Positions 9,556-23,441 of a stretch of 24,098 nt of DNA are shown piece by piece. The position numbers were made by a program, and so were the translations under genes. Origin of the DNA: a virus; IMG/VR virus record IMGVR_UViG_3300017758_000137, positions 1-24,098 of that record; one strand, 5' to 3'. The notes beneath the pieces were generated by a model. It was not told where the DNA came from. It saw only the letters and a list, made by a program, of their open reading frames with translations, and did not search any database. Numbering within the stretch: position 1 is the stretch's first letter; every line of letters starts with the position of its first letter.

Positions 9556-9915
9556 ATGCAGTACAAAGATCGACCATTGTGTAAGAAGTGTAAGTCTAAG
9601 CCAAGAGCATATGCCTACAAGCGTTATGGCAAGGTCTATTGGCGTAGTCAGTGTGGCACATGTATTCGTAAAAATTCAGGAAAGAAAATTGGTGGGGTAA
9701 CTGCATTACAAAGATCTGGATATAAGCTCAAAAAGAAATGTGAGCTGTGTGGTTTTACTGCCCAAGACAAGTCTCAAATGGATGTGTTATTTGTGGATGG
9801 CAATTTAAGAAATACTACAACCAGCAACCTAAAAACTGTTTGCGCCAATTGCCAACGGCTTAGTACCACCCGTAGGCTTGGATGGCGTGTCGGAGATCTT
9901 GTCGCTGACGATTAG
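9556..9915 (+). CDS. HNH-like zinc-binding protein lacking catalytic histidines
   Basis: 119 basic residues. Four CxxC pairs are visible: C9/C12, C33/C36, C62/C65 and C96/C99. The C-terminal half has the layout of phage HNH endonucleases (CELCGF, ...DVxxxDGNxxN, NLKTVCANC). The position that should be His is F79 and the His after the last CxxC is Q100, so the metal-dependent nuclease site is probably dead. DNA binding through the zinc knuckles and basic N-terminal region remains plausible. It is the only plus-strand gene between gp13 and the left edge, has its own late-type promoter 5 nt before the ATG, and its last 87 bases overlap the 3' end of the kinase gene on the other strand. Confidence 0.85.
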   Translation: MQYKDRPLCKKCKSKPRAYAYKRYGKVYWRSQCGTCIRKNSGKKIGGVTALQRSGYKLKKKCELCGFTAQDKSQMDVLFVDGNLRNTTTSNLKTVCANCQRLSTTRRLGWRVGDLVADD

Positions 9916-21379: not shown

Positions 21380-22225
21380 TTAACTTACTGCGGCACTAAA
21401 TGGTGTTGCCGGATTAGCGCCGGCCGACACTCTCATTTGACCAGCCACTGCATATTTGTCTGCGGCAATGTCGATCAATGTTAATGTGTCTCCTACTAGT
21501 CCACCTTGTGTCCCACTGTTCAATGTTATCGTGTCTGATGCGGCCACAGTTGGAAATGATGTCACTGCGTTGCCATCCTCATCAAGATACATTATTTGTC
21601 CTGCGAAAGTATTGTTGGCATCAGGTGCCTGAATTTTATATGTTGTCGATCCTCCCATGGCAACACTGACGATGAAATGATAGATATTGCCAGAACCTGT
21701 TGCATCTGGCATTGTCAACACAACGTTTGCGTTTCCTCCAACTTCACCGAGTAGAAGTGTTCTACCTGCGTGTTCGGACTCTGTGACTGCGTCAGTGGCT
21801 GTGAAACTGTGTAACGCTTTTTTAAAAGAGCCTGTCAGTGCCAATGTGCTCGATGTCGTTAATGCACCAGTACCACTTGCTGTTATGCTTAAATCAGCAT
21901 TTGAACCATTTGAACTTATCACATTGGTTGTTAAACTATTTGCTGTGATGTCTGTTGCCGTAACATTACCACTGAATATTGCGTTGCCGTTCTCACTCAT
22001 GTCTAGTTGTAATGCTGTGATTGTTGAAGAACCATCTAGACCTTTTAATAGAATGTCATTGTTGGTACCCATAGATTTGATCACAAGGTCAGATGTTATT
22101 CTGCTGATTCTACCAAATTCTGTCCCGCCGTCCTGTAGTTTTACGTCGGCGTTGTCCGCGTCAAGTATGATATCTCCGACTGCGTCAATTGTTAAATTGT
22201 TTGATGTTCTTATTGTTTTCGACAT
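21380..22225 (-). CDS. Fibre-like virion protein
   Basis: 281 residues, rich in Ser/Thr/Asn/Gly and beta-structured. MSKTIRTSNNLTIDAVGDIILD and IFSGNVTATDITANSLTTN are typical of the shaft region of T4-like fibres. NADLSITASGTGAL repeats the motif seen in the downstream fibre genes. The C-terminal half (TLLLGEVGGNANVVLTMPDA; FAGQIMYLDEDGNAVTS; VAGQMRVSAGANPATPF) forms a separate domain. It is first of three co-transcribed genes. A late core ends 7 nt before the ATG and a second lies about 110 nt upstream. Confidence 0.75.
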   Translation of the reverse strand: MSKTIRTSNNLTIDAVGDIILDADNADVKLQDGGTEFGRISRITSDLVIKSMGTNNDILLKGLDGSSTITALQLDMSENGNAIFSGNVTATDITANSLTTNVISSNGSNADLSITASGTGALTTSSTLALTGSFKKALHSFTATDAVTESEHAGRTLLLGEVGGNANVVLTMPDATGSGNIYHFIVSVAMGGSTTYKIQAPDANNTFAGQIMYLDEDGNAVTSFPTVAASDTITLNSGTQGGLVGDTLTLIDIAADKYAVAGQMRVSAGANPATPFSAAVS

Positions 22226-22232
22226 TTGCTAT

Positions 22233-22240
22233 TATTTATG
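22233..22240 (-). promoter_or_regulatory. Proximal late-promoter core before 22225
   Basis: The minus strand reads CATAAATA, then 7 nt (ATAGCAA), then ATG 22225. Confidence 0.6.
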
Positions 22241-22248
22241 CGAAGTAT

Positions 22249-22269
22249 GGGGGAGTATAAAACTCCCCC
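22249..22269. other. Strong GC hairpin in the 22226-22451 intergenic
   Basis: Perfect 7-bp inverted repeat GGGGGAG / CTCCCCC (22249-22255, 22263-22269) with a 7-nt A/T loop. It lies between the distal (22336-22343) and proximal (22233-22240) late-promoter cores. On the minus strand there is no T run after it. It may be an RNA structure in the leader or a processing site. Confidence 0.6.
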
Positions 22270-22335
22270 TCTTATAAGTGTGTCGTGTAAAGTACGTGTT
22301 CTCTGTACCGTGCGAATGCACTGTTGACTTGCAAA

Positions 22336-22343
22336 TATTTATT
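22336..22343 (-). promoter_or_regulatory. Distal late-promoter core
   Basis: The minus strand reads AATAAATA followed by TTTGC, about 110 nt upstream of the gene at 22225. If used, the transcript would carry the GC hairpin 22249-22269. Confidence 0.5.
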
Positions 22344-22376
22344 GGTGTGAATTTGGTATAATATGGGTGTAGATTG

Positions 22377-22420
22377 AAAAAGGGCGATGTGATACAATCC
22401 ATAAATTAATCACACCACCC
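22377..22420 (-). terminator. Rho-independent terminator after the small membrane protein
   Basis: 12-bp stem (22382-22393 with 22409-22420, two G-T wobbles) and 15-nt loop, followed on the minus strand by TTTTT (22377-22381). It lies 32 nt after the stop at 22452. Confidence 0.8.
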
Positions 22421-22451
22421 TTGAGGTTTACGTATATTCTAGATTTTTATA

Positions 22452-22685
22452 TTATTTTCTGCTGTAGATATGATATAAAATCCAAACTGCGACCAATCCG
22501 ATCAACCCTTGATCAGAAAACCCTTGCAGTACGCCCTGGACATTTCCTATTACGGAAACGTTTGGCCAGAACGGAATACCTTGACCATTGAAAAGGATCT
22601 CTAAAATGATTCCTAACGCAATAAGTGAAACACCCACGTCAGCTAATCCTTTAGCCCATCCTTTGATTTGGTTCATGATATCCAT
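22452..22685 (-). CDS. Small two-helix membrane protein, possible holin-like
   Basis: 77 residues. Two hydrophobic segments: about residues 15-33 (LADVGVSLIALGIILEILF) and about 60-73 (GLIGLVAVWILYHIY), separated by a 25-residue loop with GQGIPFWPNVSVIG, and ending in RK. No Cys. The basic C terminus after the second helix and the two-helix hairpin are the features of a small holin or similar envelope protein; no family-specific motif identifies it. The Shine-Dalgarno (GGGGAGG, 7 nt before the ATG) is among the strongest in the window and a late core lies 46 nt upstream, so abundant late expression is expected. Alternative: a virion membrane-contact protein. Confidence 0.75.
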   Translation of the reverse strand: MDIMNQIKGWAKGLADVGVSLIALGIILEILFNGQGIPFWPNVSVIGNVQGVLQGFSDQGLIGLVAVWILYHIYSRK

Positions 22686-22692
22686 TTTTGGA

Positions 22693-22739
22693 CCTCCCCT
22701 TTGTTGTTGTGATTCTTGCGAATCGTAAATTTATTTAGG
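22693..22739 (-). promoter_or_regulatory. Late promoter and strong Shine-Dalgarno for the small membrane protein
   Basis: Minus strand: CCTAAATA at 22732-22739 and GGGGAGG at 22693-22699, 7 nt before ATG 22685. The rest of 22686-22808 shows no other clear feature. Confidence 0.65.
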
Positions 22740-22808
22740 TACCTGCGGTGCAAGTAAAGTTACCTTATTTGGTCTGCGACTGGTATGAAGGTGAAAAAAA
22801 TTAGTAAT

Positions 22809-23384
22809 CTATATACAGAACTCTTTGTAAAGCTCGTAATCGTAACTGTTATAATCTTTGTGCCATGAAATAAATTCTTTGCTCAATTTGTGTCTTTCAG
22901 CGTATCTTTGGTAATCTTCGTTGCTTCTATTTGTGTTTAGTCTTGGTTCTTGATCTATTTTCAAGATATCTGCGACTTCGTTCCAACTGTCTTCAAATTT
23001 TTCTATGCAAAAAACTTTTTTGAAACCGTTCCCAAGTGTGTTCCTCACCGTTTGATATTTTGTTTCAATGTCGACATTGGGGTCCAGCAACAAATAATTC
23101 TTGTACAGCCACAGTATAATAAAATTGCCAGCAAGGTTCCTGCAATGCTCTTCGAAAGTATGGCCGTCAATGTCTCCTTTGCCCATGTCATAGTTGTAGT
23201 GTGAAATATCTCTGTCTAATGGATCACGCAACCAAACGAAATGCGTGCCAGGTGTACGCACTGTGCTGTTGTGTCCCACTGCATAATCCAATTTGCTGAT
23301 TTGTTTTTTCTCTGCACGATCTTCTAAACGCATTCGGAGAGAGCTACCACCTGTCTTTGGTATGTGATGAAAGCAGTAATGCAT
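22809..23384 (-). CDS. Phage-encoded sulfotransferase-like protein
   Basis: 191 residues from ATG 23384. The N terminus has the 5'-phosphosulfate-binding loop of PAPS-dependent sulfotransferases, HIPKTGGSS (7-15), right after a strand. The second signature, LRDPLDRDISHY (52-63), is the 3'-phosphate-binding motif with Arg and Ser. Later charged helices (CIEKFEDSWNEVADILKI; about 126-143) match the general fold. It is shorter than typical (about 250). The probable reaction is transfer of sulfate from PAPS to a carbohydrate or other acceptor; the acceptor is unknown. ATG 23384 is chosen over a TTG at 23417 because a late core ends 5 nt before it. It lies between the major capsid gene, its terminators and the membrane protein gene, as its own late unit. 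Confidence 0.82.
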   Translation of the reverse strand: MHYCFHHIPKTGGSSLRMRLEDRAEKKQISKLDYAVGHNSTVRTPGTHFVWLRDPLDRDISHYNYDMGKGDIDGHTFEEHCRNLAGNFIILWLYKNYLLLDPNVDIETKYQTVRNTLGNGFKKVFCIEKFEDSWNEVADILKIDQEPRLNTNRSNEDYQRYAERHKLSKEFISWHKDYNSYDYELYKEFCI

Positions 23385-23389
23385 ACCGT

Positions 23390-23397
23390 TATTTAAA
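23390..23397 (-). promoter_or_regulatory. T4-type late promoter core for the sulfotransferase
   Basis: The minus strand reads TTTAAATA, then ACGGT (5 nt), then ATG 23384. Leaderless geometry, no Shine-Dalgarno. Confidence 0.6.
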
Positions 23398-23415
23398 TGG
23401 AGATAGTACCGCCAC

Positions 23416-23441
23416 AAAAAAAGGCGACATGGGCCGCCTTT
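23416..23441 (-). terminator. Rho-independent terminator downstream of gp23
   Basis: Stem 23420-23426 with 23435-23441 (AAAGGCG / CGCCTTT), 8-nt loop, then a run of T on the minus strand (23416-23422 on plus are A). Confidence 0.9.

Follow-up and report, generated by a model that had tools for sequence, protein, structure and literature searches.

The 226-nt gap at 22226-22451 of a 24,098-base fragment from an uncultured T4-related phage (virus record IMGVR_UViG_3300017758_000137; the whole fragment is referred to as the window) is, on balance, best explained as the border where one late transcription unit of the phage gives way to another. Read from right to left on the minus strand, the gap holds a terminator, a distal late promoter, a noncoding segment termed type A, a GGGGGAG/CTCCCCC hairpin and a proximal late promoter (Table 1). 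The terminator would end the unit of the upstream 77-aa gene, and the distal promoter would start an untranslated RNA at about 22330 that contains the type A segment, with the hairpin at its end. RNA polymerase probably stops only partly at the hairpin because no U-tract follows, which would yield an RNA of ~80 nt and some read-through, and the fibre gene would be transcribed mainly from the proximal promoter, its mRNA starting about 2 nt before the ATG. In most relatives the same distal promoter appears to drive a freshwater-2 leader and a gene of the MGRP family, with the hairpin as the likely 3' boundary of that unit; the lineage of the window would carry type A RNA in place of the freshwater-2 and MGRP cassette. 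As a late-gene boundary the finding is mostly ordinary in kind. The unusual part is that a compact, nearly invariant noncoding element stands in place of freshwater-2 and its gene.

Table 1. Features of the boundary and its flanking genes in the window.
Feature	Position	Strand	Basis and remarks
Gene for small hydrophobic protein, 77 aa	22452..22685	-	ORF; own Shine-Dalgarno-like GGGGAGG; upstream of the boundary
Intrinsic terminator of the unit of the 77-aa gene	22377..22422	-	fold, then TTT
Distal T4-type late promoter, AATAAATA	22336..22343	-	exact match; predicted +1 at 22330
Type A noncoding RNA segment	22270..22330	-	conservation among contigs; predicted hairpins GUGC/GCAC and GGUAC/GUACU
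GGGGGAG/CTCCCCC hairpin	22249..22269	-	conserved stem
Proximal late promoter, CATAAATA	22233..22240	-	exact match; predicted +1 at 22227
Fibre-like gene, 281 aa	21380..22225	-	N-terminal part resembles annotated phage tail fibres

Genes of the window include a T4-type major head protein (phrog_138), a terminase large subunit, a tail sheath and a tail tube. Among the matches listed for the head protein (2481 phage records match), the closest was Sinorhizobium phage Phosso (79%), with Vibrio phage 2.275.O at 72% and Pseudomonas phage PA5oct and its kin at 71%; the terminase was closest to PA5oct and kin (62%). By these matches the phage belongs to the T4 superfamily, close to groups with large genomes. 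Searched as DNA, the 2.2-kb region had no relative in phage records at E <= 1e-5, and a tRNA/tmRNA search of the window returned 0 hits. The 77-aa protein had no PHROG or Pfam match, no relative among the 50,697 phage records searched (E <= 1e-3) and none among the genome contigs searched, and it had 299 relatives in viral contigs. The fibre-like protein had no PHROG match; its gene was matched by tblastn to the 'putative tail fiber protein' of Roseobacter phages CRP-345 and CRP-901 and to the 'tail fiber' of Pelagibacter phage Kolga. Between the head protein and 77-aa genes lies a sulfotransferase-like gene (22809-23417, minus strand; phrog_3347, E 6e-6); none was listed at that place in three relatives (L016, L024, L058), and a fourth (L048) has a different gene there. 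An HNH endonuclease-like gene (9556-9915, plus strand) overlaps the end of the deoxynucleoside monophosphate kinase gene on the opposite strand.

An earlier note on this DNA had recorded a terminator, two late-promoter cores and a G+C-rich hairpin, and all four were recovered where it had placed them, exactly so for AATAAATA (22343-22336), CATAAATA (22240-22233) and the hairpin. The terminator, described there as 12 bp at 22377-22420, is present, and its folded stem is slightly longer with G-U pairs included (22422-22380, then TTT; -22.8 kcal/mol, z -4.85, for a 70-nt stretch); a similar stem was seen by eye in the relatives listed. Both promoter cores match an 8-bp TATAAATA-like late box, and (T/C/A)ATAAATA boxes are common to this site and to the late promoters and terminator/late-promoter junctions of T4. 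In excerpts of PMC2988020 the first base of the T4 late box lies at -13, with A at -13 in nine T4 sites; NATAAATA is on record for S-PM2 in excerpts of PMC2984593. With the first box base at -13, the distal and proximal boxes give the predicted +1 positions of Table 1. As judged from box spacing, the proximal +1 falls 2 nt before the fibre ATG at 22225. The hairpin spans +62 to +82 relative to the distal +1, and the earlier estimate of about 80 nt from the distal core to the hairpin fits its end at +82. When the 226-nt gap was shuffled 5000 times with its dinucleotides preserved, two or more TAAATA cores arose in 2.6%; the two cores alone are weaker evidence than the hairpin.

The spacing of the proximal core is a regular feature of the relatives. 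At 53 fibre starts the distance from TAAATA to ATG was 7 nt in 45, 6 nt in 5 and 8 nt in 3. Of 25 gene starts considered in the window, 12 have TAAATA at a distance of 3-10 nt upstream; five starts were hand-chosen to follow a box, and with every ORF taken from its first start codon the count falls to 7 of 25. Starts with a near core include 959, 3059, 9556 (plus strand), 10677, 15034 and 22225. The same spacing was found at 0/27 starts in a stretch of Phosso (27 of 28 listed coding features entered), 0/12 in PA5oct (12 of 14), 1/39 in T4 (39 of 54) and 3/29 in HTVC008M (29 of 56). TAAATA-N4-8-ATG occurred 66 times in seven related records, and the reversed pattern 20 times. In T4, TAAATA lies within 80 nt of 14 of the 39 starts in the stretch examined, at 24-28 nt in nine of these and at 3-10 nt in one, unlike the fibre gene of the window with its core 7 nt from the ATG. 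The site points to a T4-related clade with late promoters close to start codons. Its late mRNAs should be nearly leaderless, unlike those predicted for the T4, PA5oct and Phosso stretches examined.

The hairpin (GGGGGAG-TTTTATA-CTCCCCC, 22269-22249) is a G+C-rich stem-loop (-15.3 kcal/mol for a 32-nt stretch). Nowhere else in the 24,098 bases of the window is there a perfect 7-bp stem with six or more G/C pairs and a loop of 3-12 nt. No such stem arose in the 5000 dinucleotide-shuffled versions of the gap, and the hairpin is beyond chance. Conservation with compensatory changes, which the earlier note had proposed as a check, was borne out in relatives. Fibre starts were picked by promoter and ATG alone, with the stem not required, and were found in 68 of 82 sequences (49 unique); the other 14 had none, several since the contig ends. 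In 47 of the 49 unique starts the GGGGAG stem was unbroken over at least six pairs, the exceptions being one stem with two mismatches (L069) and one site with no stem (L078). Covariation was measured in 53 sequences selected by the GGGGAG core, so that the inner six pairs are partly enforced by selection. The hairpin ends 7-9 nt before the box in 52 of these and 11 nt before it in one. The outermost stem pair was G-C in 49 and A-T in 4 (53/53 paired versus 49.3 expected), and the next pair out was T-A in 21, A-T in 16, G-C in 2, G-T in 1 and unpaired in 13 (40/53 paired versus 25.6 expected). With the set thinned to 26 sequences, both pairs still exceeded shuffles (p 0.0004 and 0.002); the signal was gone when partners were slid by 1-3 positions. 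For the third outer pair no covariation was seen (p 0.13, and 0.27 in the thinned set). The window has an unpaired A-A at the second outer pair. An alignment in which rows with longer loops are shifted by one base was kept out of the counts. As judged from these counts, the hairpin is conserved as a stem.

No U-rich tail was found directly behind the window hairpin, where the sequence reads ATACTTCG. In the fibre set, at least five T in the eight bases after the stem were counted at 1/5 type A sites and at 28/48 sites of the second arrangement (type B, described below). The same GGGGAG/CTCCCC design is used elsewhere: a scan of viral contigs (viruses unclassified) for GGGGAG...CTCCCC followed by ATAAATA gave at least 120 stretches, 110 of these unique, and at least 103 unique non-fibre sites with the hairpin directly before a late box. 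Five or more T in eight bases followed the stem at 89/103 of the latter, and a run of five T at 71/103, among the matches listed. The T-rich tails imply that the design is usually a terminator-like stem abutting a late promoter, unlike the window hairpin with no U-tract. Because the U-tract is missing in the window and rare at type A sites, termination there is doubtful, and we infer a partial stop or a 3'-end stem rather than a strong terminator.

The hairpin also bears on the suggestion of the earlier note that a structured leader protects the fibre mRNA. The hairpin is separated from the gene by a late promoter, and the predicted main mRNA does not contain the hairpin; being upstream of that promoter, the hairpin cannot protect the mRNA made from it. 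It also stands behind another gene in 59 of 60 MGRP loci. The suggestion was therefore abandoned for the main transcript, and protection by the hairpin may hold for the read-through RNA.

Relatives of the boundary were sampled through the 77-aa protein, taking the best 80 of its 299 viral-contig relatives; the viral-contig search may omit records very near the window. Among these best 80 loci, 64 had a freshwater-2 core, 8 a type A core and 8 neither. Type B loci have the order terminator, TAAATA, structured leader, MGRP gene (134-152 aa, the protein starting with MGRP), hairpin, TATAAATA-like box and fibre-like gene, and the type B leaders listed have an AGGAG-like ribosome-binding site before the MGRP gene. 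In 60 MGRP loci, the hairpin was present in 59 (L069 has no intact stem), and a TAAATA-ATG start lay 61-76 nt after the stop codon in 59 (L075 has none in the available sequence). Type A comprises the window and nine other contigs with the order terminator, TAAATA, noncoding segment, hairpin (as in type B), box and fibre gene, without an MGRP gene at the site; several of the type A contigs are cut before the fibre gene. On a tree of the 77-aa gene (231 columns; the bootstrap had not settled), type A loci were interleaved with type B, 4 changes being needed versus a shuffled mean of 8.6. These 4 changes suggest that lineages have exchanged the two cassettes.

The freshwater-2 RNA occupies the same site as the type A segment, after the TAAATA of a T4-type late promoter and before a late gene, and by eye its true 5' end is likely ~5 nt after TAAATA. 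The Rfam family (RF02980) was matched in 25 of 28 relatives' loci scanned (6/8 and 19/20), and the three loci with no match (L010, L017, L049) are type A. TAAATA lies 15-18 nt before the Rfam match in 25/25 loci and precedes the type A segment in 8/8 aligned rows. In L016 (4361-4447) and 24 other loci, freshwater-2 was seen with a T4-type late promoter core on one side and an MGRP-type gene on the other. The best 80 loci and the stretches from further scans gave at least 143 distinct places with the freshwater-2 core. At 125/143, TAAATA lay 20-50 nt upstream of the core and an MGR... protein followed; TAAATA was nearer at seven of the remaining 18. The window leader and freshwater-2 share, by eye, an AAGTCAA-like start and an ACTTAT segment before the hairpin. 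The window leader is without the TTATGCGG...CCGCGTA core, the visible Shine-Dalgarno and the MGRP gene of freshwater-2 loci. Type A was rejected as a member of freshwater-2, with no hit above 49.9 bits to the Rfam covariance model; the UUAUGCGG...CCGCGUA stem visible in the 25 matched loci was absent from the type A alignment. In Rfam searches the window gave no match at the gathering score, and 22000-22800 none up to E = 5. The MGRP family comprises L016:4445-4867 and 50 other distinct proteins (134-152 aa). The protein had no PHROG match, and a search of 50,697 phage records with the L016 copy gave no relative at E <= 1e-3. Its AlphaFold2 model (pLDDT 83, mostly beta) had no PDB fold match at E <= 0.001 and 7 matches to uncharacterised or unnamed viral proteins. 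Nothing on the function of freshwater-2 / RF02980 was found in the papers searched.

The 72 nt from the distal TAAATA onward, a stretch absent from the earlier note, are the most conserved part of the boundary. From TAAATA to CTTATAAGA (71-72 nt), five contigs were 94-99% identical pairwise, versus 41-92% over the 110 nt upstream and 41-83% over the 300 nt downstream. Between the window and L010 the element was 96% identical, the upstream DNA 50% and the downstream DNA 43%, and the 110 nt upstream were only 41-56% identical between some contigs that share a near-identical element. Third codon positions of the 77-aa gene differed by 14-23% (11 to 18 of 78) between type A loci (counted in the window, L010, L015, L059 and L065, of which L059 and L065 are identical; the gene was unfound in L017, L049 and L082). 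Selection for function or a recent exchange by recombination may account for the near-identity of type A. The alignment used 8 of 10 records, L002 (= window) and L011 (= L010) having been dropped as duplicates and L015 and L059 being truncated. The predicted type A fold has two hairpins inside a 3-bp closing stem and recurs in the window, L017 and L049; in L010 and L065 the two hairpins are kept and the closing differs. In the type A alignment the pairs are nearly invariant and no pair changed on both sides, the sole change in a hairpin pair being A-U to G-U in the window. Of 23 stretches that matched the promoter-start pattern in a scan, six were type A records already known, one (L222) was the L017 contig and 16 were unrelated. 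Two further core patterns returned the known nine contigs again, one of them with L342 as a chance match. The exact core was found in none of the genome contigs searched.

An untranslated RNA, short and conserved, is a plausible product of the distal promoter. It is very improbable that the segment instead encodes a short peptide: open frames from GTG or ATG cross it in several contigs by eye, but the start codon and frame vary between contigs, no ribosome-binding site is visible, and the candidate was rejected on a 1-nt deletion inside the segment of L017, a deletion that could be an assembly error. Pairing with another gene of the window as an antisense RNA was also rejected, the longest perfect complement of the first 60 nt being 10 nt, a length reached by 61/100 base shuffles.

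A doubtful but possible role for such an RNA is in cis. The type A segment and the hairpin would form a 105-nt untranslated leader in the fibre mRNA from the distal promoter and control its translation or stability, on the model of freshwater-2, which presumably acts in this way for MGRP. The strong sequence conservation agrees with such a leader, as does its predicted fold (-25.6 kcal/mol, z -4.46); read-through is likely because the hairpin has no U-tract, and the position is equivalent to that of an Rfam Cis-reg family (freshwater-2). However, the leader would control only part of the mRNA, because it is followed by a second late promoter with its core 7 nt before the ATG; type A precedes two gene types (281-aa MSKTIRTSNN and 82-aa MAKTVRTSG proteins), and no ribosome-binding site can be seen between the leader and the ATG.

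The conserved element could also be a relic and a recombination joint. The RNA would then be functionless, a leftover of the freshwater-2 and MGRP cassette kept uniform as a homologous joint for the exchange of fibre modules. Types A and B do share a promoter/AAGTCAA-like start and a CTTAT-hairpin-promoter end, ACGTGCTT occurs both in the freshwater-2 leader and after MGRP in many type B loci, the same leader is followed by differing fibre genes (4/6 pairs are 41-45% identical over 300 nt), and the two types interleave on the 77-aa gene tree. We nevertheless consider this origin unlikely. The inner part of the element, GTACTTTACACGAC, was confined to type A among 207 loci (17/207, all type A records or duplicates), so that the element is no plain remnant of type B, and such uniformity is not expected of an idle relic. 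In addition, no MGRP relative was found in the window or in any of five type A records searched, versus 4/4 type B controls (all of these records are fragments). A ACACGTGCTTAT-like motif was seen behind the MGRP stop in most loci listed, for example within L016:4868-4934; it and the repeated ACGTGCTT are possibly a recombination joint.

Type A may tentatively, and with low confidence, be proposed as an undescribed class of late phage RNA of ~80 nt, trans-acting or a decoy, exchanged as a cassette with freshwater-2 and MGRP among uncultured T4-related phages and placed before different fibre genes. An RNA expressed by a lytic T4-like phage has a precedent in CfrI of cyanophage S-PM2, a noncoding antisense RNA according to excerpts of PMC2984593. 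There it is described as ~225 nt and antisense to psbA/homing endonuclease, whereas the predicted type A RNA is sense, intergenic and shorter. If made, type A RNA would be a second RNA solution at the site of a curated cis-regulatory-type family, and its comparison with freshwater-2 could show what freshwater-2 does.

For type B, a pseudoknot joining the loop of the hairpin (UUACACG) to the upstream ACACGUGC was rejected, since by eye the loops vary without matching changes. In the freshwater-2 leaders listed, the 5' bases left out of the Rfam model can pair with bases near its 3' end, and this outer helix was seen by eye as AGTTCAA/TTGGACT in one group and as CAGAGCC/GGCTCTG in another; part of that listing consists of 16 loci of one freshwater-2 group.
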